Shown here piece by piece: positions 363 through 47,247 of a stretch of DNA of 64,000 nucleotides. The number at the start of each line of letters is the position of its first letter. Position 1 is the stretch's first letter. The position numbers and the translations under genes are program-made. The notes below the pieces were generated by a model that saw only the letters and a list, made by a program, of their open reading frames with translations, was not told the origin of the DNA and did no database searches. Source of the DNA: Gammaproteobacteria bacterium (lineage in GTDB: Bacteria; Pseudomonadota; Gammaproteobacteria; SZUA-152); NCBI GenBank assembly GCA_029882975.1, contig JAOUJW010000004.1:124001-188000 (forward strand), read 5' to 3'.

Positions 363-509
363 GCCCGCGCCGATATGGCAATCTTGTTGCAGGTTTCGGC
401 CTGCAGTTAATTTCACACATGTTCCGACACATATATCCGGGTGCCTGGGTTAACCCCCTGGTTGGTATATGGGGCACATGGAGGCATAACCCAACAGTGG
501 AGTAAAAAT
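363..509 (+). promoter_or_regulatory. rpsB 5' leader, possible S2 autoregulatory region
   Basis: About 140 transcribed but untranslated bases precede rpsB. They include a small hairpin (GCAGG-tttcgg-CCTGC, around 390-406) and a GGTTAACCCCCTGG palindromic stretch near 448-461. In gammaproteobacteria the rpsB-tsf leader is a known target of repression by free S2. Here only the position, length and hairpins are seen, so the regulatory role is inferred from the family. Confidence 0.4.
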
Positions 510-35214: not shown

Positions 35215-35516
35215 AGTTTACCCCTCTACATCCAGTCGATTGATCGCGAAGCCGTCACAATCTGTTTGCTTACGGTTCCTTATCCAGTCGTCAATCCTAA
35301 TGGATAATGGCTTGACCTTGCAAACTATTCCGATGTTTGTCCCTTTGCTCAATACGAGCGCGTAACAGTGTCGGTGTATTTGCTATTGTGAAGCGTTTAA
35401 TACTTTTGTGCTAAATACAACGGTACTTTATACAATGGTACTTTATACAATGGTACTTTATACAATGGTACTTTATACAATGGTACTTTATACAACGGTA
35501 CCTAATGAAACCACAT
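35215..35516. other. 302-base spacer between fnr and the SGNH hydrolase gene
   Basis: Both flanking genes are on the - strand. The half next to 35214 should hold the SGNH gene's promoter. The half next to 35517 holds the 15-bp tandem repeat array. No gene or clear terminator hairpin is seen, apart from the array itself. Confidence 0.5.
35416..35505. repeat. Six tandem copies of a 15-bp unit
   Basis: The unit TACAATGGTACTTTA is repeated six times head to tail. The first copy reads TACAACGGTACTTTA and the last TACAACGGTACCTAA; the four middle copies are identical. It starts 12 bases beyond the fnr stop on its 3' side. Each unit contains GGTACTTTATACA-like near-palindromic GTAC. The spacing is too short for CRISPR and there are no spacers. 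Confidence 0.93.
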
Positions 35517-36371
35517 TTAATACAATAGCTCCATCCATCGTTGCCCGGCCTGAAGTTCCTTTTTACGTCTATACCACTTGTCTTGCGAACCGGCCATTTC
35601 GGCAAAGGCTTTGTCCAGCATAGTGTTTATGCGATTATGTCCTGCCACATAAACGTAGGTATTGTGGCAACAGATCAAATCCCATACTTCCTGTTCCTGC
35701 AATTCCAAGGCTTGTGTCAGTGCAACATCCTCGTCCCAGTGGGGTCGGATCGACAAACTGCTGAAGGCTTGAAAGGTTTCCTCATCATAGTAGTTGCTGA
35801 AATCATCATGGTGTTTGTTCATATACAATAACTCCAGTCCGGTTCGGGCTCCGTAAAATAAACGCACTTTACCTTCCCAACCTCCCAGTTCTTTATAAAT
35901 ATGTTTGACGAATGCACGAAAGGGGGCGATGCCGGTACCCATGCCGATCATGAGTATATTGGCCGATTTGTCATCGGGAATAGCAAAAGGAATGGAGTAA
36001 GGGCCGGTAATGGTGATTGCTTCGTTGACCTTTAAGTCGCACAAATAGTTGGAAGCTATGCCTCGGTAGCTCTCACCGCTGTAGGGGTCTACATTATTAC
36101 AACGTTTTACTACGATGGTGATCTGGGTGTTGTTCCCGTGCTGAACCGGCACGTCTGCCAAAGTGTATAGTCTGAAGTGGGTTTTATGACCGTAATCATG
36201 CGGTCCCGGAACCACCACGCCGATACAGGCCTCGATTCTTTTTGGCGTGTAATCAGTGACACTTAGTGCAATTTCTTTGACTTCGTCGTCGCTGTCTGTA
36301 GGGGTCAAGCGCTTGCTGCTGCATACTGTTGCCTGGTAGCGCTTACTGGTGTCATAGTCGCTGAGTCGCAT
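35517..36371 (-). CDS. Plant-type ferredoxin-NADP(+) reductase
   Basis: FAD protein moving electrons between ferredoxin and NADP(H). The 284 residues show FRLYTLADV (FAD isoalloxazine site) and SNYLCDLKVNEAITITGPYS. The NADP half has MIGMGTGIAPFRAFVKH, VRLFYGARTGLELLY and VYVAGHNRIN. It ends in Tyr (WMELLY), which stacks on flavin in plastid-type FNRs. It starts at ATG 36371 behind AGGAG, 23 bases after rnfA, and is the last gene of the rnf-nifJ operon. It probably connects the same ferredoxin pool to NADPH. Confidence 0.88.
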   Translation of the reverse strand: MRLSDYDTSKRYQATVCSSKRLTPTDSDDEVKEIALSVTDYTPKRIEACIGVVVPGPHDYGHKTHFRLYTLADVPVQHGNNTQITIVVKRCNNVDPYSGESYRGIASNYLCDLKVNEAITITGPYSIPFAIPDDKSANILMIGMGTGIAPFRAFVKHIYKELGGWEGKVRLFYGARTGLELLYMNKHHDDFSNYYDEETFQAFSSLSIRPHWDEDVALTQALELQEQEVWDLICCHNTYVYVAGHNRINTMLDKAFAEMAGSQDKWYRRKKELQAGQRWMELLY

Positions 36372-36394
36372 AGTTCTTCTCCTGTGGATCCGGC

Positions 36395-36988
36395 TTAAGG
36401 TGCTCCCAGACCGGAAAAACCCATAAACGTCAAAGATAGGATGCCTGCCAAGAATAGCGTAGCGGCGGTACCTCGGGCCAACTCCGAAGTGGTTGACAAA
36501 GATAGCTTAACTCGTAGACCTGCCATCAGCACCAATGCCAGAGTGAAACCGACGCCGGCACCCAGGGCATAGACAATACACTGCATCAATTGGTAACCCT
36601 TGTTGGTTTGAAACAGTGCTAAGCCCAATATGGCACAATTGGTCGTAATTAGTGGTAAGAAAATTCCCAAAGTACGAAATAGCACGGGGTTCACTTTCTT
36701 TAACATGATTTCCAACATTTGTACTGTTGAGGCAATCACCAGAATAAACGACAGTAATTCCAAGTAGGGCGCCTGTATCAAAATCAGTAAAGCATGCATA
36801 GAGTAAGCACATACGGAACTGATTAACATGATCAGCGTGACAGAAATGCCCATACGAGTCGCTGTGCCCAAGTTACCGGAAACTCCAAGGAAAGGGCAGA
36901 TGCCAAGAAAATAGGCCAGAACAAAATTGTTTACCAATGCCGCGTTAAGAAAGATTTGCCAATAGGCTTCATCAAGCATGATGGTCAT
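36395..36988 (-). CDS. rnfA: Rnf complex membrane subunit RnfA
   Basis: Integral membrane subunit of the ion-translocating ferredoxin:NAD oxidoreductase, with a Cys-ligated iron site shared with RnfE. ALVNNFVLAYFLGICPFLGVSGNL, GIFLPLITTNCAILGLAL and FMGFSGL (C-terminus) are diagnostic. Two starts are possible, ATG 36988 and ATG 36979; both overlap the end of rnfE. The frame is open further up into the hexanucleotide repeat, giving INININ residues that are unlike RnfA and are probably not translated. Confidence 0.93.
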   Translation of the reverse strand: MTIMLDEAYWQIFLNAALVNNFVLAYFLGICPFLGVSGNLGTATRMGISVTLIMLISSVCAYSMHALLILIQAPYLELLSFILVIASTVQMLEIMLKKVNPVLFRTLGIFLPLITTNCAILGLALFQTNKGYQLMQCIVYALGAGVGFTLALVLMAGLRVKLSLSTTSELARGTAATLFLAGILSLTFMGFSGLGAP

Positions 36989-37640
36989 GTTCCTGTTGTT
37001 GATGTTGATGTTGATGTTGATGTTGATGTTGAAGCGGTCTTGGGCTGCGTAGGACATCGAATATAAGTACCCAGAATCCTAAGACCAGAAATCCACCACT
37101 GGGAAGAACCATGACTACCCAGGGTTCAAAATTTTCAGGCAGGATAGGTATACCAAATAAAGCACCGCTTCCAAGCAACTCTCGCACGCCACCCAAGCAC
37201 AATAATGCCAGACAAAACCCCAGTCCCATTCCCGCTGCGTCTACCAGTGAGGGCCAAAGGGGGTTACGCGACGAAAAAGATTCGGCTCTGCCCAATATAA
37301 GGCAGTTCACTACAATGAGAGGAACAAAAGCGCCTAAGGCTTTATGTAATTTGAGGTCGATAACTTGCAGCCCATAGTCCACCATGGTAACGAAGGTAGC
37401 GATAATTAAGATATAGCAAGCAATTCTCACTTGACGGGGAATTAGATTTCTCAAAGTGGATACGAACAAGGCCGACATTATCAGCACAAAGGCGCTCGAT
37501 AAACCCATGGCCAGGCTGTTAAGTGCTGTGTTGGTTACCGCCAGCGTGGGGCACATTCCCAGGGCCTGTACAAAAACCGGGTTTTGTTGCCATAGACCCT
37601 GAAGGAACAGGTTGGTTTGGTTTGGATGCGCGGTACTCAT
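36972..37640 (-). CDS. rnfE: Rnf complex membrane subunit RnfE with His/Gln-rich tail
   Basis: Paired with RnfA in the membrane. QNPVFVQALGMCPTLAVTNTA, GAFVPLIVVNCLILGRAE and the membrane segments are typical. The start is ATG 37640 (MSTAHPNQTN), overlapping the rnfG stop by four bases; the open frame to 37715 is not RnfE-like. It is 222 residues. The C-terminus is odd: after DVLRSPRPL the protein ends in alternating His-Gln (QHQHQHQHQH, then QQQEHDHHA) encoded by a hexanucleotide repeat. A His-rich cytoplasmic tail might bind metal or be neutral. Confidence 0.93.
   Translation of the reverse strand: MSTAHPNQTNLFLQGLWQQNPVFVQALGMCPTLAVTNTALNSLAMGLSSAFVLIMSALFVSTLRNLIPRQVRIACYILIIATFVTMVDYGLQVIDLKLHKALGAFVPLIVVNCLILGRAESFSSRNPLWPSLVDAAGMGLGFCLALLCLGGVRELLGSGALFGIPILPENFEPWVVMVLPSGGFLVLGFWVLIFDVLRSPRPLQHQHQHQHQHQQQEHDHHA
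36998..37032. repeat. Hexanucleotide microsatellite GTTGAT, nearly six copies
   Basis: Five complete GTTGAT units (36998-37027) plus GTTGA. It codes for His-Gln dipeptides at the end of RnfE and lies just upstream of the rnfA start. As the unit is six bases, gain or loss of copies keeps the frame and only changes tail length. Confidence 0.93.
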
Positions 37641-38356
37641 GGGACTCTTTCCACGGGATTGGTTGGTGTTGGCGCATTGCGTCCTGTCGCAAGTTGGTGC
37701 AGCCGGGGAACCCAAAGAGCAGAGCTTTTGGATACCGTCTGGATCAAACTGCGAGAGGAAATGGTGGCCCCGGTAATGCTGTCCAGCTCACCGCTTGTTG
37801 GTTTCTTACCTTTTTTGGCCAGGGTGATGATTTTACGCAGTTGTTGTCGATTATCGGTAAGGGGAACCGGTAAGGCGTCGAACTGCGCTTTAAAATGCTG
37901 ATCGGTTTCGATTTTAGTGCCCAGTCCAGGTGTCTCACGGCTGCTAAGTATCTCGTAGCCAGAAATGATCTGGGTTTGTGGACGGTAAGCGTAGAGTAGA
38001 GCAATATTATCCTGGTAACCCATTCCCGAGGCTCGCACTGAATAACCGAGCAAAATGTCATGCCGGTCGAGTACTTCGTAAAAATGTGCCTGCGTGATGC
38101 GCTTTTCCAGCAGAGTCAGTTTTCCGGAGGCGTCCATTTGTAACGCCCGAAACCTGGTGCTGTGGGGAAACAATTCCTGAATCGATTGTTGCAGCAGTTG
38201 TTGTTGGTTTTTTTCAATGGTTGGTGCACTGCTCATATATACAACCGCCAAGAGAGCGGCGCAGATAAGGCCCATTAATGTCAGGGTAAGGAACATGATG
38301 CCCGGTGTTTGGGGTGTCTGGTTTGTTTGCAGTTGGACAATCTGGGATTGACTCAT
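37637..38356 (-). CDS. rnfG: Rnf complex FMN subunit RnfG
   Basis: Periplasm-facing subunit with one membrane helix (about residues 20-42) and covalently bound FMN. The flavinylation motif is present as LDSITGATISSRS, with the acceptor Thr in the TGAT-type motif. SRETPGLGTKIE is a second signature. The start is ATG 38356 (MSQSQIVQLQ), overlapping the rnfD stop by ATGG-type overlap. It is 239 residues. The open frame to 38602 lies inside rnfD and is ignored. Confidence 0.93.
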   Translation of the reverse strand: MSQSQIVQLQTNQTPQTPGIMFLTLTLMGLICAALLAVVYMSSAPTIEKNQQQLLQQSIQELFPHSTRFRALQMDASGKLTLLEKRITQAHFYEVLDRHDILLGYSVRASGMGYQDNIALLYAYRPQTQIISGYEILSSRETPGLGTKIETDQHFKAQFDALPVPLTDNRQQLRKIITLAKKGKKPTSGELDSITGATISSRSLIQTVSKSSALWVPRLHQLATGRNAPTPTNPVERVP

Positions 38357-39366
38357 GGCGATTGCCCCGAAAACGGTTTGGGTTGTAATAAGCGATCGAT
38401 GTGGGGGGAAAGAGCATTGCAGAATAATATAGCGTACATGACACCTTCCGGCAGGCCGGACCAGTAGCGTATAACGACCACCAAGGCTCCTATGAGAACG
38501 CCATAAACAAAACAGGCGCGATGACTTAAGGGTGATGCAACCATATCTGTGGCCATGAACAAAGCCCCCAGCATTAAGCCGCCGGAGCACAGCATAAACC
38601 ACGGTCCTGCGAATTGTTGGGGTTGCAGCCAGTGAAACAGGCTGCTGAGAGCAAAGACGGCTATGAATATGCCGGCCGGGATGCGCCAGTTCATAAAATT
38701 TCTAAATATCAAGTACAAGCCACACATCAGAATCAGAGCAGCACTGGTTTCCCCCAAAGAACCGTTGCTTGTTCCCAGGAATAAGGAGTTCAGTTCACTG
38801 GATTGGCCGCCAAACTTGAAAGCGCTCAACGGAGTGGCGCTGCTGAGGCTGTCATAGCTTGGAGATAGGAGTGGAGGCGTCAAAACAGAATCCGCAATGC
38901 TATGGAACCGATCCGGGGAAAAAGGTGGACTGAATGTGGTCAATGAGGAAGGAAAAGCTGCCTGCAGAAAAGCGCGACCCACTAATGCGGGGTTAAACAC
39001 ATTACAACCCAATCCACCGAACAACATTTTTCCCAGGCCGATGCTGACTATACCTCCCAGTGCAGCCATCCATAAGGGCAGGGCGGGTGGTAAGGTCAGG
39101 CCTAACAGTAAGCCGGTAATCACTGCCGACCCATCGCCGATGCCGGACGGTAACGCCATACGTTTTGACAACCAGTGTTCGGTTAACAAACAACTTATAA
39201 CGCAAACACCAATGATGAGAAGCGCAGACCAGCCATAGCAATAGAATGCAAAACCGACCATTGGAATCAGGGCATACACCACATGGCGCATAATCTTGGG
39301 TACACTCGTGTCGCTGAATATATGGGGGGAGGTGTCAATGTGCAGTGAGGTTTTTATGGGCTTCAT
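38353..39366 (-). CDS. rnfD: Rnf complex membrane FMN subunit RnfD
   Basis: Polytopic NqrB/RnfD-type subunit with covalently bound FMN. Signatures: DGSAVITGLLLGLTLPP, FGGLGCNVFNPALVGRAFL, SSATPLSAFK (FMN-Thr site) and FMATDMVASPLS. The start is ATG 39366 (MKPIKTSLHID), overlapping the rnfC stop; the frame open to 39492 is not RnfD-like. It is 337 residues. Confidence 0.93.
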   Translation of the reverse strand: MKPIKTSLHIDTSPHIFSDTSVPKIMRHVVYALIPMVGFAFYCYGWSALLIIGVCVISCLLTEHWLSKRMALPSGIGDGSAVITGLLLGLTLPPALPLWMAALGGIVSIGLGKMLFGGLGCNVFNPALVGRAFLQAAFPSSLTTFSPPFSPDRFHSIADSVLTPPLLSPSYDSLSSATPLSAFKFGGQSSELNSLFLGTSNGSLGETSAALILMCGLYLIFRNFMNWRIPAGIFIAVFALSSLFHWLQPQQFAGPWFMLCSGGLMLGALFMATDMVASPLSHRACFVYGVLIGALVVVIRYWSGLPEGVMYAILFCNALSPHIDRLLQPKPFSGQSP

Positions 39367-40760
39367 AGTTCCCCCGATGCCGGGGTTTGCGGTTTCGCTT
39401 TGCGATTTAGTTTTGTAAGAGCCGCTTTGGCTACGCGAAAGTACTGCGTTAGGGGAATATGGGACGGACACACATACGCACAGGCACCACACTCAAAACA
39501 GTCCGTGAGATGATAGGCTGCCATGTCTTGATAAGCCTGCTGCTTGGCTTGTAAACCCAACTGGGAGGGGTTCAATCCCATGGGGCAAACCTCGACGCAA
39601 TGGCCACAGTGTATACACGGATAGACCTTGCGTTGATCTTTCACATGCTCAGCGTCGAAGGCAAGCACAGAGGAGACGCCTTTAGTAATCGGTATGTCCA
39701 GGCCGGCTACCGCTTTGCCCATCATGGGGCCACCCAGAAAAACCCGGCTGAGGCTGTCTTTAACCCCCAAGGTTTCCAGGATAAAACGTAGCGGGGTACC
39801 GATGGTGATGCGATAGTTACCTGGCTTGAGTACAGCGGGCCCGGAGACGGTGATAACGCGCTCCTGGATACCCTGGCCTAAGGGCAGTAGATGGCCAATT
39901 TCCGCCGCAGTGGCTACATTGACCGTCACAGCACCGATGTCATAAGCATGACCACCGGAAGGTACGGTTCGTTGTAACAGGGAGTGGATCAGCAATTTGT
40001 CCGCGCCTTGTGGGTATTTAACCGGTAATAGATGCACCGAAATGCGGGCATGTAAATTACGCCGGGATAGCGTTTGGTTCAAGGATTTCGCGGCATCTGT
40101 TTTGTTGCTTTCGATTCCGATCATGGCCTGCCGGGCACCGCTGGCTTTAAGGCAATAGAGTATACCGTTAACAATGTCATCGGTTTGTTCCAGCATGACT
40201 CTATGGTCCGTAGTTAAATAGGGTTCACATTCAGCGCCATTGACCACCAAGGTGTCCACCACTTTTCCCTCTGGAGGTTTGAGTTTTGCGTGGGTGGGAA
40301 AGGCTGCGCCACCCAAGCCGACAATTCCTGCGTTTTGTATGGCTTGAATAATGTCCTCGGCGCCGGCGGTGTCCAGATGGCACGGTGTGCCGGGTATTAC
40401 CTCTTGAGTGGCGCCGGGAGTGGCTTGTAAGTACATGCCCGGTGTCATTCCTGCAGCACTGGGGACCCAGTCGAATTTTTTCACGACTCCTGAAACCGGG
40501 GCGTGCAAACACGTGGATAAAAAGCCATCGGCCCGAGCCAGCAGCTGTCCGCGGCTCACCTCCTCATCGGTTTTAACGACTGCAATGGAGGGTTTGCCAA
40601 TATGTTGTCGCAGTGGCAGTATTAACAAAGGCGCAAAGGCGAGGCGCTTTATGCTTAAATGTGCCGTTAGTTTGGCGTCGTCCAGATGCAAACCCCTAAA
40701 CGAACTGCGTCGCACTATGGTGTCTGTCTGCTGTTTGATGTGGATAGTGTTATTGGCCAT
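39363..40760 (-). CDS. rnfC: Rnf complex NADH-binding iron-sulfur subunit RnfC
   Basis: Cytoplasmic subunit thought to exchange electrons with NAD. The 465 residues contain the Gly-rich NADH/FMN region (GIVGLGGAAFPTHAKL, VVNGAECEPYLTTDHR), an SLBB-like part, and two [4Fe-4S] motifs (CIHCGHCVEVCP and CFECGACAYVCP). It lies six bases after nifJ and overlaps rnfD. The order C-D-G-E-A that follows is the one known from clostridial-type rnf clusters. Confidence 0.95.
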   Translation of the reverse strand: MANNTIHIKQQTDTIVRRSSFRGLHLDDAKLTAHLSIKRLAFAPLLILPLRQHIGKPSIAVVKTDEEVSRGQLLARADGFLSTCLHAPVSGVVKKFDWVPSAAGMTPGMYLQATPGATQEVIPGTPCHLDTAGAEDIIQAIQNAGIVGLGGAAFPTHAKLKPPEGKVVDTLVVNGAECEPYLTTDHRVMLEQTDDIVNGILYCLKASGARQAMIGIESNKTDAAKSLNQTLSRRNLHARISVHLLPVKYPQGADKLLIHSLLQRTVPSGGHAYDIGAVTVNVATAAEIGHLLPLGQGIQERVITVSGPAVLKPGNYRITIGTPLRFILETLGVKDSLSRVFLGGPMMGKAVAGLDIPITKGVSSVLAFDAEHVKDQRKVYPCIHCGHCVEVCPMGLNPSQLGLQAKQQAYQDMAAYHLTDCFECGACAYVCPSHIPLTQYFRVAKAALTKLNRKAKPQTPASGEL

Positions 40761-40766
40761 GAGTTG

Positions 40767-43700
40767 CTAATTATATTTAGTGCCTCGGGCGATCCATTTG
40801 TCCATATCCTTACCCGCGTCTTCTCGTGGATAGCCGGGGTGAATTACTTGTGCAGTACAGCGTTCAGCAGCCTGCACCAAGTCGCTGTAGGGACCGGCAT
40901 TTGGGTTTTTAATAATAGCCTGCTTCTTATCGTTGTACTCAAACATGGCCGGATTGAGTTGAGTGCACTCGTCGCAGGCGGTGCATTCCTCCGATTCAAT
41001 CCAGGGAGCGATGTATTGACTTGATGGTGTTGCTTCAGTCTCGGGATTTAGAGCATCAGGATTAAGTGTCGTGGTTGCTGCGGAGTCAAGCAGGAGTCCG
41101 TCCCCCCCCATGAGTTTCATCAGTCCGTTGCTCACTTGGGACAAAATTTGCCGGCGTATGGCGTGTTCCAGGTCGGCAGTGCTGGTTTGAGGCTGACCTT
41201 CTCCGCTCAGTGATTGTAGTAGTGTCCAAAATCGCTGCCGGTCCTCGCAGGCGGCGATCATGGATTCGTCTACCATCAAGCGCCCTGGTTGAGATTGAGG
41301 GGCATTGGGATTCAAAGTCCACACATACGGATAGCGTTGTGATCGTTGCTCCGGTTGCAGTTGCAGATAGTCTGCTACGGGTATCATATCTTCATGCCAG
41401 GTGTCCGGCGGTGCTGTTCGAAAGTGTTTACGAAAGCGGGTTTCCGTTAGGGCGTAATCTGCAAAGGTAAAAGGCAGTTCCATGACTTCTTTAATACCGT
41501 TGTGATCATAATGCAGTTTGTAAGTGGGCCAGGCATGGTGAATTGCCGGGTTGGAGTTCAGATGCAGGCATTCTTTTATAGTGTCGCCATCGTCGGGATT
41601 GTAATGGAACAGTGGGTAGGCCCTGGATTCTACAGCCAACTTAGCCTGATGATGACTCATATCATCACCTATTCCGTGTTCCGGCTGGCAGGAGGTAAAG
41701 CAATTAAAAACAGCAGGACGTTTACTTAACAAACCCTCCACAAAGCCTTCTATCATATGGTTGGCATAGGCTATGGTGCTTTGCATCACATAGCTGGTGC
41801 GATGGGCGATGGCCAATAGGCCCATTTCTTTGCGGATTTCCTCTTTGCCCTTGTGCGCACTACCAAATGGTGCCATATCGGAGATCTGCCCCGTAAATCC
41901 GGAAGTGCAAGCTTGTCCTCCTGTGTTGGAATACACCTGCGTGTCCAGAATCAGGACCTTGATGGGTTTGCCCGCCATTAACATGCGTGACAGGTTTTGA
42001 AAACCAATATCGTACATCGCACCATCGCCTCCAATGGCGACGACGGGAGGGCACAAAGCCAGTTCCGTGTCGCTGAACTGATGCCAGTCGAAACTCTGAA
42101 AAAATACGTCGTGCTCACGGGGATCGTATTGGTCTGTAAGTTCCAGGTGCACTTTGCGTATGACCTTAAAGCCTTCGGCCATTTTGGCCATATGACCTTC
42201 AAATATTCCCATGGCCATAGATGGGCTGTCCTGAAACAAATGATTCGACCAGGGGAACGGATAAGGGTTATAAGGGTAGGTGCTGCCCCATACCGACGAA
42301 CAACCTGTGGCGTTTATTGCCCCCATGCTGCTGCGGCCGCGTCCGCTGGGGCCCTGCGTATAAAGCCAGCGCAAATGTTTAAGCTGTTCCAACAGTTTCA
42401 ATACCCGTTCCAACCAATCGTGATCTATAGGTTGTGTGTCCTTTACGCTATCCAGCTTCGTGGCAATCGTACCCAGGGTAAGTTCATTGTCCCCCAGAGA
42501 ATGCAGAATACGTCTTAAGGTATTCGTGTCTCCCACGTTCATGGTAGCGACCAAGCGGGTTTCTATGTGTTTTTGTAGTTCGTCGATCAATTGCGATAAC
42601 GCTTCAACATGCCGGGCAACGCGTTGTTGCATCAAAGTTTCTACGGTCGCGGTAAACAATCGAATCACGGTTTTTTCACCGCAACCCATGCAGGCACCAT
42701 CACCGCTGCTAAATGCCAGATAGGCATTTTTATTCAGCAGGATACTGTGTAGGGCGCCGATGCGCTGTTCCAGATTCTCTACTCGGATATAGTGAGGTGG
42801 TGTATTGGGCAGATCCAACCAAAGTGACCAGTGTCTACGCAACCGAGTCAGGCTATCCGGGGATTGCGGGATGCTGATTAAAGCCTCATCGTTACAGACC
42901 TCTATGCATTCACGGCAACCTTTGCAGCTGTAAGGATTAATCACCAGACTGAATAAACCACCACTACCATTGGATTTGCGTTCGGGTACGGTGAAGTAAG
43001 GGCGGGTTATGGCAAAGGAGAAACTGCCCAGTTCCTGTTTAAACAGGGAAAATTCCCGGCGCAGTTGTGCTTTATCGTTTTCCTCCAGCTGTTGTTGTTC
43101 CAGCCCTTCGGTGAGCACTGCCGTCATTAGTGAATTGGTGTTGATTTTATCCTCTGAGTTAATAAACGCTGTTCGTACCTCATGCTCCAAACTGCGCAGG
43201 GCCTTGGGTAAAAAGTTAAGTTTGTGTCCGGAACTGCGAATTCGTTGCAATAGCGTGTCAAAAACCTGGTTAATGTCGTTGACTAAACCGGGGATAGCCG
43301 TATCGGGGCATACCGTGTAGCAATCACCACAGCCGGTGCAGTTTTCTGCGATCCACTGTGGATGCTCAAATCGAATCGAACTCATATCGCGAAATAGCGC
43401 GGAGAGAGCGGGGAGTGTGCCCAATCCTATAAAGGGGTCGGCTAGGTTTTGCCCTGCCAAACCCCGGGCATAAAAATTACCATTTTGCTCCCAAAATCGG
43501 TGCAAGCTGGCCACCGGGGCTTGAGATTGTGGAACGAGTTTCACCATGATCGGGATAGCCGGTTCCGAAGGGCAGGCTTGAGATGAAACCGGGTCCTGAA
43601 TAATTTTATCCGGTATACGTTGGAGTTGATCGAAACCGCGTTTGACCACTCGCACATTGTCTTCCACCACTCGGGCGCCCTTGGTCCCGAACTTGTGCTG

Positions 43701-45731
43701 CAGTTGTTGTTGAATCGCACTGAGCAGAGTGATTTCGTTGAGTCTATTTTTCTGCATTAGGTCTGTAGCCGCAAAAAAAGCTCCCTGGAATGCGGTACCC
43801 TGCATGCGCATTTGTAATTCGGCATCGGTCGCTTCCTCGCGCGCAATTTTGAATGCATCGAGGAAATACACCTGAATGTTTCGCTCACGTATGGCTAAGC
43901 GATATTTTTCAGGAAATGCGGCCCAGACGTGTTCCGGTGCTGTCAGTTCGCTTTGTATAATGAATACACCACCGGTTTTTAAGCCCGCCAGAGCATCGGT
44001 ATGGTGGAATACATTGGGATCGGGCGATATGACCGTGTCCACATACACGTATTCGCAATTCATGCGAATGGGTTCGGGAGCGGCGCTCAGGTAATAGGTG
44101 GTTGGTTGGCCTTTCTTTTCCGAACCGTACTTGGGATTAGCCTTGATGTGATAGTTAAGCAGTTCAAACAAAGTCATGGCTAAGTTTTTTCCGGTGGTCA
44201 TTGCGCCCCATCCGCCGATTGAATGAAATCGTATGGTGATACTGTCTTTCGGCATGAGGTTGGGGTTTTCGCTGCCGTGAACCGCTAACTCGCCGATATG
44301 TGGATAGGCTTCGGCCAACGTCTGTTGGAAAACTTCTTGGGTTGGTGTCAGAGCTTGTTCATGAATAAAGTCTATGCCCAGGTAGAATTGCTTTTTATGA
44401 TGACCGTCATCTAACATGTTTTCCACTGCACCGATGATACCTTCGGCCTGTAAATCACGACTGCCCAGTCCAAAACAGGCGGAATACAACAGCGGGATAT
44501 CATCCTGGGTGTAAGATTGCAGCTCAGGAAACGGTTTATTATGTTTGTTAGGGCTAAGATGGTTTTCTACGGATTTATTAATAGTGGCGCGTATTTCCCG
44601 TAGCAAAGGCGGGTCACCGGCCAAAGGTTGATCCAGGCGCTCCATAACGACTACGCCTTTTTTTCCTTTAAGTATTTTGCTGATGAGGTCTGCGGGGAAA
44701 GGGCGGAACATGAGCATATTCACTACCCCGACTTTTAAATTCCTTTGTTTGCGCAAGTAGTCGCTCACCACTTCGGCACTGGGGATAATGCTGCCTTGAC
44801 CCAGTATGACATACTCTGCATCCTTGCATCGGTAAGACATCACCCGTTCATAGCGACGCTGGGTGAGTTGATAAAACTCTTCGAATACCTGATCCGTAAA
44901 AGTGGCAATATGGTCAAAGAAAAAGGGACGTTGTGCGGCGACGGTTTGCATATAGCTGTCTTGATTTTGAACCACGCCGGACATGATTGGATTGTCTATA
45001 TCCCAAAGCTCAGGGATTCGCCGACGTGTGTCGCCATATAATATGCGTTGTGCCGGCGTCGGTGTTTCTATGATGTCTTCCGGTTTACCTAAAAAGGTTT
45101 GGATCAGTTCACGTTCCGGTGCCAACATGGACTCGATAAGATGAGTGGTTAGAAAACCGTCTTGAGCGATGATGCCTGGGTTCAGTGCCAGTTCTGCAAT
45201 GCGGTGTGCGCAAATATTCAAGTCCGCCACGTGTTGAGCATTTTTAGCGAATAGTTGAAAAAAACCGGTGTCATCCACGCAGTGGTAATCGTCGTGACCT
45301 GCATGTACGTTTAAGGAGGCTTTGGTCATGGCGCGGCTGCCCATGTTCAGCACATAGGTCAGACGTTTCCCAACGGCGGCATACAAAGATTCGTGCATAT
45401 AGGCCACGCCCTGACCGGAGGAAAAATTTGCGGCGCGTAAACCGGTCATGGACAAACCTGCGGTGACAGCGGCTGCAGCGTGTTCGCCCTCGGGTTCGAT
45501 AAAAATGAGAGGCCGTCCTGAAATATTAATATGTCCGTTGGCTGCAGCTTCGGCCCAGTATTCACCCATTTGGGTGGACGGAGTAATGGGATAGGCGCCG
45601 GCAGCGTCTGAGGATTCGCGTTCGCAATGAATAGCGGCACTGTTTCCATCCATGGCGGCCCGAGTTCCGGGGTAAAGTGGTAAAGGCATTTTCTTAATCT
45701 TGGATGGGGTGGTTTTTGCCTGATCATTCAT
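40767..45731 (-). CDS. nifJ: Large 2-oxoacid (pyruvate):ferredoxin oxidoreductase
   Basis: Oxidises pyruvate or another 2-oxoacid with CoA, passing electrons to ferredoxin or flavodoxin. Order in about 1654 residues: pyrimidine-binding domain (YPITPSTQMGEYWAE, GIIAQDGFLTTH); domain II; gamma domain (HSIGGWGAMTTGKNLAMTL); two [4Fe-4S] motifs far apart (CTGCGDCYTVCP and CKGCRECIEVCN, about 160 residues between); TPP domain (MGCGEKT, AINATGCSSVWGS, GDGAMYDIG, YSNTGGQ); and a C-terminal single-cluster ferredoxin-like domain (CTACDECTQLNP). E. coli-type enzymes have about 1175 residues, so insertions and the extra ferredoxin tail make it unusually long. ATG 45731 is chosen (AAGGAAG upstream); a GTG at 45743 is too close to that site. 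Confidence 0.92.
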   Translation of the reverse strand: MNDQAKTTPSKIKKMPLPLYPGTRAAMDGNSAAIHCERESSDAAGAYPITPSTQMGEYWAEAAANGHINISGRPLIFIEPEGEHAAAAVTAGLSMTGLRAANFSSGQGVAYMHESLYAAVGKRLTYVLNMGSRAMTKASLNVHAGHDDYHCVDDTGFFQLFAKNAQHVADLNICAHRIAELALNPGIIAQDGFLTTHLIESMLAPERELIQTFLGKPEDIIETPTPAQRILYGDTRRRIPELWDIDNPIMSGVVQNQDSYMQTVAAQRPFFFDHIATFTDQVFEEFYQLTQRRYERVMSYRCKDAEYVILGQGSIIPSAEVVSDYLRKQRNLKVGVVNMLMFRPFPADLISKILKGKKGVVVMERLDQPLAGDPPLLREIRATINKSVENHLSPNKHNKPFPELQSYTQDDIPLLYSACFGLGSRDLQAEGIIGAVENMLDDGHHKKQFYLGIDFIHEQALTPTQEVFQQTLAEAYPHIGELAVHGSENPNLMPKDSITIRFHSIGGWGAMTTGKNLAMTLFELLNYHIKANPKYGSEKKGQPTTYYLSAAPEPIRMNCEYVYVDTVISPDPNVFHHTDALAGLKTGGVFIIQSELTAPEHVWAAFPEKYRLAIRERNIQVYFLDAFKIAREEATDAELQMRMQGTAFQGAFFAATDLMQKNRLNEITLLSAIQQQLQHKFGTKGARVVEDNVRVVKRGFDQLQRIPDKIIQDPVSSQACPSEPAIPIMVKLVPQSQAPVASLHRFWEQNGNFYARGLAGQNLADPFIGLGTLPALSALFRDMSSIRFEHPQWIAENCTGCGDCYTVCPDTAIPGLVNDINQVFDTLLQRIRSSGHKLNFLPKALRSLEHEVRTAFINSEDKINTNSLMTAVLTEGLEQQQLEENDKAQLRREFSLFKQELGSFSFAITRPYFTVPERKSNGSGGLFSLVINPYSCKGCRECIEVCNDEALISIPQSPDSLTRLRRHWSLWLDLPNTPPHYIRVENLEQRIGALHSILLNKNAYLAFSSGDGACMGCGEKTVIRLFTATVETLMQQRVARHVEALSQLIDELQKHIETRLVATMNVGDTNTLRRILHSLGDNELTLGTIATKLDSVKDTQPIDHDWLERVLKLLEQLKHLRWLYTQGPSGRGRSSMGAINATGCSSVWGSTYPYNPYPFPWSNHLFQDSPSMAMGIFEGHMAKMAEGFKVIRKVHLELTDQYDPREHDVFFQSFDWHQFSDTELALCPPVVAIGGDGAMYDIGFQNLSRMLMAGKPIKVLILDTQVYSNTGGQACTSGFTGQISDMAPFGSAHKGKEEIRKEMGLLAIAHRTSYVMQSTIAYANHMIEGFVEGLLSKRPAVFNCFTSCQPEHGIGDDMSHHQAKLAVESRAYPLFHYNPDDGDTIKECLHLNSNPAIHHAWPTYKLHYDHNGIKEVMELPFTFADYALTETRFRKHFRTAPPDTWHEDMIPVADYLQLQPEQRSQRYPYVWTLNPNAPQSQPGRLMVDESMIAACEDRQRFWTLLQSLSGEGQPQTSTADLEHAIRRQILSQVSNGLMKLMGGDGLLLDSAATTTLNPDALNPETEATPSSQYIAPWIESEECTACDECTQLNPAMFEYNDKKQAIIKNPNAGPYSDLVQAAERCTAQVIHPGYPREDAGKDMDKWIARGTKYN
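41102..41109. repeat. Eight-base C/G homopolymer inside nifJ
   Basis: Eight C on the + strand are eight G in the nifJ message, near codon 1541 of about 1654. The tract lies just before the C-terminal ferredoxin-like domain. The reading frame is intact as given. Confidence 0.9.
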
Positions 45732-45747
45732 TGCGAGTCTCACTTCC

Positions 45748-46629
45748 TTAACTGTTTAAAGGTTGCAAGGAGCTGTTGCGCAGCACTTTTACCGACTGCT
45801 TGCCGTATTCACACCTGCCGTCTGCCCCTATCCACAGAATGGCACCCGTGGGACAACGTTGTATGGGAGCCTGGTTGCGGTGATTCTTGGTGTAATCTAT
45901 TACCGGTAGATTGTTTTGTATAGTAATGAGATCAGGTGCATCCTTCTCACAACGACCGCACGCGGTGCAGGCAACTTCACAATAACTGAGTAACTCATCA
46001 CCAAAAACCGGGTTATTGCAGGCTACCCATAGACGGTGCTCCACAGGATGGATGGTAAATAAATCTTTAGGACAAATATCGACACAGTCGCCACAACCGG
46101 TACACAGGTCTTCCCGTACCAGGGGTAGGGAGTGCGGGCTCATGTGAATGGCGTCAAAATCGCAAACTCGTTCGCAATCGCCAAGGCCCAGACAGCCCCA
46201 TTGACACACTTTGGCTCCCCCATTCACTTGAGCGGCAGCCTCACAGGTGGCAAGACCGGAGTAGTGGGCATGAAAGCGGGCTACATTGTTGCCGCCGGCA
46301 CAAGCCAAGCGTGCAGTGAGTTGATTGACTGTACCGATGCCGACTTGCAGAATGTCGGCAACTTGCCGGCGTTGTTCCTCATCGGATACGCTGCATTGCC
46401 CGGGGTTCGTTTTATGTTGCAGCAGTGCTTCGGCAAATTGGCGGCAACCGGCAAAACCACAAGCGCCACAATTGGAGTTGGGCAAGGTTTGCTCCACCAG
46501 ATCCAGGCGTGGGTCTTCTTGTACCGCAAAGCGCCGGGCGAAAAAGATCAGTAACAGAGCAATAACCGCGGAAATTGCCGTAAAGGTAACAATTGCCGTA
46601 AAGGTGGCGGTGAGCGTATTCGCAGTCAT
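45748..46629 (-). CDS. rnfB: Rnf complex iron-sulfur subunit RnfB, long form
   Basis: Membrane-anchored ferredoxin-accepting subunit. An N-terminal helix (about 8-32) is followed by CGACGFAGCRQF, then a Gly-rich CEAAAQVNGGAKVC segment. Several [4Fe-4S] motifs come after it (CLGLGDCERVC, CTGCGDCVDICP, CTACGRCEKD). At 293 residues it is much longer than E. coli RsxB (192) and resembles the multi-cluster RnfB of anaerobes. It is first in the operon, separated from rnfC by nifJ. An 18-bp duplication sits in its membrane anchor. Confidence 0.93.
   Translation of the reverse strand: MTANTLTATFTAIVTFTAISAVIALLLIFFARRFAVQEDPRLDLVEQTLPNSNCGACGFAGCRQFAEALLQHKTNPGQCSVSDEEQRRQVADILQVGIGTVNQLTARLACAGGNNVARFHAHYSGLATCEAAAQVNGGAKVCQWGCLGLGDCERVCDFDAIHMSPHSLPLVREDLCTGCGDCVDICPKDLFTIHPVEHRLWVACNNPVFGDELLSYCEVACTACGRCEKDAPDLITIQNNLPVIDYTKNHRNQAPIQRCPTGAILWIGADGRCEYGKQSVKVLRNSSLQPLNS
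46573..46605. repeat. 18-bp tandem duplication in the rnfB membrane anchor
   Basis: AATTGCCGTAAAGGTAAC (46573-46590) is followed by AATTGCCGTAAAGGT (46591-46605). In the RnfB protein this gives the repeated hexapeptide-like TAIVTF-TAIS segment. It is in frame. Confidence 0.85.
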
Positions 46630-46896
46630 TCTGTGCGGCTATTGCCTTTTTGCATTTATTAACTATACACCACCTGAGCCGTATCGATGTTTGATCGAAA
46701 TCAGTTTTCAAGTGCCCTGAACCCGGTGGTGATTCACTTTAAATGTGTAAAAGTCAAATAAAACATAAACATACAGATAGTTGCTGCTGTGGTGTTGTCA
46801 GGGGACGGGGCGTGTCGCTAATGAAAAAATCCCCTGAAACAGGTAGACTGCGATCCCATTGTGAATTGTTGTAAAGTGAAGGAGTGCAGGCAGACT

Positions 46897-47247
46897 ATGG
46901 ATTCATTGGAAACCATCCAAAAACTACAAAATGTCCAAAATAATATAAAAATCTTTACGGCAGTCCCTATGGGAGTGTTGATGATTTTGTATTTTTTCAC
47001 TTACGCGACCTTAATAGATCATGGTTTGACCGGATTTCTTTTTTTTGAAATCGTCACCAGCATTTTGTTTCTGATGGCACTGATTTTTCTTAATCCTTTG
47101 AGCTTTGCGTTGGTAAAATTAATGTATGGGCGGCGCCAACCGTACCAGTCCATATTACAGCAACTGAGCCCGTCCAGTATTGTGAAGCCGGCGGATCAAC
47201 TGTTGCAGGATTTGCAACTAAACGATCAAAATAGCAATAGCAACTAA
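46897..47247 (+). CDS. Small membrane protein of unknown function
   Basis: 116 residues from ATG 46897, AAGGAG upstream. Two hydrophobic segments (about 20-40 and 48-75, ILYFFTYATLI and FLFFEIVTSILFLMALIFL) are followed by a polar cytoplasmic-like tail ending in a low-complexity NDQNSNSN. No family is recognised. Its stop overlaps the mutL start (TAATG), so the two are co-transcribed, but a role in mismatch repair cannot be inferred from that alone. It diverges from rnfB. Confidence 0.7.
   Translation: MDSLETIQKLQNVQNNIKIFTAVPMGVLMILYFFTYATLIDHGLTGFLFFEIVTSILFLMALIFLNPLSFALVKLMYGRRQPYQSILQQLSPSSIVKPADQLLQDLQLNDQNSNSN

Follow-up and report, generated by a model that had tools for sequence, protein, structure and literature searches.

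Ferredoxin-dependent enzymes and the Rnf complex are usually regarded as anaerobic equipment. Precedents for a direction in which ferredoxin electrons are spent on synthesis come from Rnf1 of Azotobacter, which works in reverse (PMC12174285), and from Kentron, in which pyruvate:ferredoxin oxidoreductase (PFOR) acts as a heterotrophic pyruvate synthase (PMC6593406). Rnf genes in reductive tricarboxylic acid (rTCA) clusters of the Escarpia and Riftia symbionts were proposed to serve ferredoxin-linked CO2 fixation (PMC6315080, PMC11636981), Caldithrix carries rnfBCDGEA plus a PFOR under a distant locus tag (PMC5317091), and in the Solemya velum symbiont rnfB2 and rnfC2 are separated by PFOR genes (PMC4287430), all according to the passages of these papers that deal with the genes. 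Here, we describe an operon with the last-named arrangement in 64,000 nucleotides of a gammaproteobacterium (lineage SZUA-152; assembly GCA_029882975.1, contig JAOUJW010000004.1, positions 124,001 to 188,000), which are called the window below. It combines all six Rnf subunit genes with a long 2-oxoacid:ferredoxin oxidoreductase (POR) and a plant-type ferredoxin-NAD(P) reductase (FNR). The gene order was noted once before, in the Solemya symbiont; new is the recurring unit with fnr and a small gene. These genes may encode one ferredoxin module in which Rnf (from NADH and an ion gradient) and FNR (from NADPH) feed a pyruvate synthase, a reading that we rate just short of probable.

The eight genes lie on the - strand between 35517 and 46629 in the order rnfB-por-rnfC-D-G-E-A-fnr (Table 1). 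All reading frames are open, the family identity of each gene is backed by Pfam and NCBIfam profile searches, and neighbours overlap or are separated by at most 23 bp, in agreement with a preceding sequence-only reading that had listed eight tightly spaced - strand genes, rnfB-nifJ-rnfC-D-G-E-A-fnr. The same reading had extended the operon to 46731, which is excluded by in-frame stops upstream of the rnfB start at 46629. The rnfB-por gap amounts to 4 bp if por starts at GTG 45743, or 16 bp for the candidate start ATG 45731, upstream of which AAGGAAG is found. The genes por and rnfC are 6 bp apart and rnfA and fnr 23 bp, while there are 4-bp overlaps at rnfC/D, D/G and G/E, provided that the inner ATGs serve as starts, and one of 8 or 17 bp at rnfE/A. 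Judged from this spacing, the eight genes would form one transcript. A promoter and terminator scan returned no more sites than shuffled sequence, and no inverted repeat of at least 12 was found at 46600-46900. The order is shared by dozens of loci across several phyla and is hence beyond chance. It had been described as the clostridial order except that B stands first, which is essentially correct; Bacteroidetes and Chlorobi are known to have rnfBCDGEA, as the relevant passage of PMC3534657 states.

For comparison, named genomes were scanned with eight gammaproteobacterial PORs, and the best 80 of at least 577 relatives were kept (59-66% identical). A POR stretch of more than 2.8 kb was present at 106 loci (two pairs being the same record twice), and at 74 of these rnfC, D, G, E, and A are all visible. 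Loci with por and full rnfCDGEA are labelled Pseudomonadota, Bacteroidota, Calditrichota, Myxococcota, Planctomycetota, Acidobacteriota, Verrucomicrobiota, and Hydrogenedentota, and fnr occurs in the first six of these eight phyla; many of the loci are metagenome bins, the taxon labels of which may be wrong. Named carrier strains include Marivirga sericea DSM 4125, Algoriphagus kandeliae, and Rubripirellula obstinata. The distribution of por is patchy, with 24 carriers among 369 evenly drawn Gammaproteobacteria (including the window's genome; three have only a distant type) and three among 149 Bacteroidia (including the central genome). A gene-order comparison within Chromatiales and Thiotrichales, as had been suggested, is too narrow for an operon that crosses phyla. 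The sequence-only reading had also named wide presence with a known function as an argument against its proposal: the presence is indeed wide, and no tested function was found in the open-licence literature. Nor did the parts of that literature consulted yield a description of the fnr, the small gene, the variant with phosphoenolpyruvate (PEP) synthase, or the cross-phylum unit, although papers elsewhere are possible.

Among the 74 full-block loci, fnr is present in 57 and PEP synthase in five. The other 12 comprise four of the distant type, three that end at this position (L043, L069, L090), and five with neither gene (L029, L084, L107, L143, L147). Two further loci had POR pieces too short for this count; one carries PEP synthase in pieces (L154) and the other neither gene (L150). 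The rnfB gene stands at the operon end in Bacteroidota-type loci and mostly before por elsewhere. A permissive search found a small Cys-rich gene in 63 of the 74 loci, but none beside the window operon; elsewhere in the window genome it was not detected by a profile, a weak negative as the profile also missed a divergent copy in another genome (G144). In L040-L117 (e.g., L052, L071) the gene lies between rnfA and fnr; its product, about 60-77 aa long, has a single membrane helix and a cluster of Cys residues, and no Pfam match above cut-off. The protein presumably resembles NqrM, the maturation factor of Na+-NQR. Its assignment as NqrM was rejected, since none of six sequences matched Pfam NqrM at E up to 10 and only weak matches to other families appeared.

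Across the 55 loci with all eight genes, the pairwise distances of the remaining genes track those of por (r 0.84-0.93; fnr 0.90), a comparison with no unlinked control gene. The Bacteroidota-type order also occurs in two gammaproteobacterial loci (L075, L139), and L139, from a genome of two contigs, shares 73-95% identity in all eight genes with Cecembia rubra (L094). On these comparisons, the operon appears to move between lineages as a whole unit. That por, rnf, and fnr keep recurring together argues for a ferredoxin pool common to all three. The window genome possesses a second, ordinary rnfABCDGE on another contig, and its RnfC is only 37% identical to that of the window, compared with about 49-62% for the por-adjacent RnfC of the 80 named loci; the window set was therefore not recently duplicated from the resident one. 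The genomes G567 (contigs 9 and 10; L145, L151) and G001 (contigs 66 and 179; L024, L025) each hold two distinct versions of the POR-Rnf cluster, and at one locus (L050) the full operon is preceded, at a distance of about 9 kb, by another rnfCDGEA set.

The enzyme between rnfB and rnfC had been recognized as a 2-oxoacid:ferredoxin oxidoreductase, which stands in both position and superfamily, as the POR_N, POR, and TPP domains and the 4Fe-4S ligands are all present. The name nifJ does not: the score of 400.6 bits against TIGR02176 (NifJ, homodimeric PFOR) lies below the curated equivalog cut-off of 911.35, and the protein is consequently filed as a POR-family enzyme, by its profile scores a long divergent relative of NifJ. 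It comprises 1654-1658 aa versus 1171-1232 in solved PFORs, and the alignment to the latter places about 80 and 115 additional residues around the cluster region. Numbered from ATG 45731, Cys residues 798, 801, 804, 808; 936, 939, 942, 946; 1014, 1017, 1144, 1348; and 1583, 1586, 1589, 1625 are invariant in eight POR sequences, and so are T50, E83, and R133. The latter three align with the Thr, the catalytic Glu, and the substrate Arg of PFOR, and their agreement with PFOR suggests that the substrate is probably pyruvate. In 23 of the 80 named loci, an open reading frame (ORF) of about 120 aa lies upstream of por on the same strand (e.g., L091:431-805), with no NCBIfam match for the L091 copy and no Pfam match for the L063 copy.

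All six Rnf subunits (RnfABCDGE) were identified with Pfam and NCBIfam. RnfB, C, D, and E reach the NCBIfam cut-offs; RnfA (212 vs 229 bits) and RnfG (84 vs 102 bits) pass only those of Pfam. By eye, the candidate flavinylation motifs are SITGATISS in RnfG and SSATPLS in RnfD, for which the consensus is SGATPLA. At the rnfE end, six perfect hexamer copies (window 36997-37032) encode a tail rich in His, lie immediately ahead of the likely start of rnfA, and are a possible slippage site. The FNR matches solved plant-type enzymes, with plant FNRs as the nearest solved relatives (E 8e-55), and has the C-terminal aromatic residue of this type; Tyr is the last residue in 53 of 58 FNR copies and Phe in four, and the remaining copy (L027) has two further residues after the Tyr. 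Ser207 is invariant and Arg209 nearly invariant, whereas the later Lys/Tyr of spinach FNR were not seen; a preference for NADP seems likely but is uncertain on these residues. Just after fnr, a 15-bp tandem repeat spans 35415-35501 (5.8 copies, 97% match).

It is established thermodynamics that NADH alone cannot drive ferredoxin-dependent pyruvate synthesis. In the proposed module, Rnf, powered by NADH and a transmembrane ion gradient, would reduce ferredoxin, as would the plant-type FNR from NADPH, and the fused ferredoxin domain of the long POR may accept electrons from this reduced pool. POR would spend them on carboxylating acetyl-CoA to pyruvate, which could open a path from acetate, fatty acids, or stored polymer to C3 compounds in an aerobe or a facultative anaerobe. 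Because POR, Rnf, and FNR are all reversible, the flow may turn round under an excess of low-potential electrons. The contacts between the partners, pyruvate as the substrate, and the direction of flow are what we infer here, and the pyruvate-synthase reading rests on gene neighbours and thermodynamics, not on co-occurrence. More broadly, Rnf, the long POR with its own ferredoxin domain, the plant-type FNR, and usually the small membrane Cys-rich protein, which may help to build an Rnf iron-sulfur cluster, could be a horizontally spread module that acts as an ion-gradient-driven pyruvate synthase in aerobes of many phyla; we put this forward tentatively, as a distinct possibility.

The neighbouring genes provide the clues to direction. 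PORs of the ppsA type fall into a supported clade of 11 (support 100), sister to the window's branch. A PEP synthase gene follows rnfA in six of ten sister-type loci in which that position is visible (L030, L031, L032, L144, L145, and, in pieces, L154); the ten include two too broken for the tree, and the six carry six different family labels. Both PEP synthase copies tested (L031, L145) score above the NCBIfam cut-off, and the PEP synthase regulator comes next in L145 according to Pfam and in L031 and L144 by sequence only. Pyruvate phosphate dikinase (PPDK) scores above cut-off near three operons; in L117 it lies upstream on the operon's strand, in L059 and L096 nearby on the opposite one. 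The latter locus also has a Crp-type regulator gene after fnr on the same strand (L096:18565-19263). Distant POR relatives (about 29%) adjoin korAB in L036, L151, L152, and L153. In L036 the block includes sucCD and is followed by mdh, a gene that L153 has as well; korAB-like genes flank some fnr-type operons as well. Beside rnfB, these distant clusters contain an ORF of 750-840 aa that is partly similar to POR (L036:12901-15153, L151:12564-15086, L153:14986-17496, L152:3420-5855); the L036 copy has no Pfam match. The sequence-only reading had offered either shared electrons from 2-oxoacid oxidation or a pump in reverse. The shared ferredoxin pool finds support in the recurrence, and PEP synthase, PPDK, and the TCA-type enzymes lean towards pyruvate synthesis with Rnf in reverse, without deciding the matter.

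Several points weigh against pyruvate synthesis. PEP synthase and PPDK turn pyruvate of any origin into PEP, and korAB is able to work oxidatively. No PEP synthase lies beside the operon in the window's own branch, for which the direction is borrowed from relatives, and four sister loci (L029, L143, L147, L150) have neither ppsA nor fnr at the visible position. The NADP specificity of FNR is uncertain from the residue comparison, and 17 of 50 POR-bearing genomes possess isocitrate lyase. In the Riftia symbiont, sulfide limitation went along with lower expression of korAB and a PFOR-like gene but higher expression of rTCA genes, an observation that counts only if the former are the same genes as the distant type; the passages on these genes call the direction of Rnf and PFOR unknown (PMC11636981), and the corresponding passage on Escarpia and Riftia leaves that of korAB open (PMC6315080). 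For the Solemya symbiont, the relevant passage favours the oxidative direction, in which pyruvate may feed the Rnf (PMC4287430).

Under such an oxidative operation, POR would oxidize pyruvate, and ferredoxin would pass electrons to Rnf, giving NADH with ion pumping, or to FNR, giving NADPH as in chloroplasts, a route that could stand in for pyruvate dehydrogenase at low oxygen and save energy. POR and Rnf classically run this way in anaerobes, and the four sister loci without PEP synthase and the Riftia expression result strengthen this reading at the expense of pyruvate synthesis; we consider it the main rival, possible but less likely than pyruvate synthesis. A second oxidative route is, however, not obviously needed. 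In a set of 60 POR-bearing genomes (the window's, nine from relatives, and the genomes behind 50 of the 80 named loci, chosen for their long flanks), the E1 subunit of the aerobic 2-oxoglutarate dehydrogenase (OGDH) scores above cut-off in 57, the exceptions being G022 (none), G116 (weak), and G117 (partial), and each genome has two or more E2-like matches to an ill-fitting model, actinobacterial SucB. POR thus adds to an aerobic TCA cycle, and its role as OGDH replacement was rejected. Moreover, PEP synthase in the same block suggests that pyruvate is pulled towards PEP.

As a redox balancer, Rnf and FNR would work as an ion-driven NADH-to-NADP+ transhydrogenase via ferredoxin, with POR as a side valve. 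The transhydrogenase subunit PntB is indeed absent from the window genome and altogether from nine of the ten POR-bearing gammaproteobacterial genomes of the relatives set, which includes the window's. However, PntB is lacking in all 24 genomes of the window's family, with or without POR, and present in 37 of the 50 other carriers; its absence marks the family and not the operon, and the ppsA-type block does without fnr, which makes this role unlikely. A substitution for the glyoxylate shunt was rejected as well: isocitrate lyase occurs in none of the ten POR-bearing relatives versus 28 of 104 others (which include G057 with a distant POR type), yet the whole window family is without it, and no clean anticorrelation emerges. 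Ferredoxin supply to nitrogenase, a known role of other Rnf operons such as Rnf1 of Azotobacter, is very improbable and largely refuted as a general role, as only five of 64 carriers, the window genome not among them, have NifH above cut-off (a further three score below it, at E up to 1e-60), even though three of four late-added gammaproteobacterial genomes have it (G344, G467, G567).

The flanks of the operon seem unrelated, with a GDSL lipase gene after it and a divergent ORF (no Pfam match) and mutL before it. Apart from the operon, an Rfam t44 RNA match was found at window 396-490 (71.8 bits).

Table 1. Operon genes and the fused ferredoxin domain with their window positions.
Feature	Position	Strand	Basis
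rnfB, long form, 293 aa, several Fe-S motifs	45748..46629	-	Pfam FeS and Fer4 above cut-off; TIGR01944 82.7 vs 68.7 bits
por, 2-oxoacid (probably pyruvate):ferredoxin oxidoreductase	40767..45743	-	1658 aa (GTG 45743) or 1654 aa (ATG 45731); POR_N, PFOR_II, POR, TPP_enzyme_C; TIGR02176 400.6 bits, below cut-off
por C-terminal single-cluster ferredoxin domain, residues 1583-1635 (from GTG 45743)	40839..40997	-	Fer4_13; PDB 1dax ferredoxin I matches profile; four Cys invariant in 8 sequences
rnfC, 465 aa	39363..40760	-	TIGR01945 460.9 vs 246 bits
rnfD	38353..39366	-	Longest ORF from 39492, likely ATG 39366; TIGR01946 307 vs 207
rnfG	37637..38356	-	Longest ORF from 38602, likely ATG 38356; FMN_bind above Pfam cut-off; TIGR01947 83.9, below 102
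rnfE, His-rich C-terminus	36972..37640	-	Longest ORF from 37715, likely ATG 37640; TIGR01948 221 vs 213
rnfA	36395..36988	-	Longest ORF from 37057, likely ATG 36988 or 36979; Rnf-Nqr 167.5 bits, above Pfam cut-off; TIGR01943 212, below 229
fnr, plant-type ferredoxin-NAD(P) reductase, 284 aa, C-terminal Tyr	35517..36371	-	Pfam/NCBIfam and comparison with solved FNRs

If pyruvate synthesis is the correct reading, cells with an aerobic-type TCA cycle would draw on an ion gradient to obtain the low-potential electrons for fixing CO2 into pyruvate, and would thereby possess an acetyl-CoA-to-sugar route in addition to the glyoxylate shunt. The named carrier strains make this proposal testable.

Compared with homodimeric PFOR/NifJ, the window POR has the same chain of POR_N, core, POR, 4Fe-4S, and TPP with cluster Cys and active-site residues kept, but it is about 420-490 aa longer than the solved enzymes with inserts around the clusters, has an additional C-terminal ferredoxin domain, and scores far under the TIGR02176 cut-off. 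The FNR shares the GTGIAPFR motif and mostly the C-terminal Tyr with plant-type FNR (chloroplast; PetH; the reductase half of BoxA); unlike PetH and BoxA it is not fused and scores below their cut-offs, and four copies of the operon FNR end in Phe. The rnf2 set (rnfBCDGEA) of the Solemya velum symbiont agrees in the stated order with PFOR between rnfB and rnfC and in a second rnfABCDGE in the genome, a likeness by description, and the passage on it mentions neither fnr nor the small gene or the spread (PMC4287430). As far as the passages on the Escarpia and Riftia symbiont clusters go, their Rnf genes beside rTCA genes recall L036 and L151-L153; these clusters have transhydrogenase and Hdr-Flx, while the window operon has fnr and no TCA genes (PMC6315080, PMC11636981). 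In Azotobacter vinelandii, the sink for Rnf1 is nitrogenase and the passage concerned mentions no POR or FNR, but the likeness lies in an Rnf complex that an aerobe reverses to reduce ferredoxin (PMC12174285).

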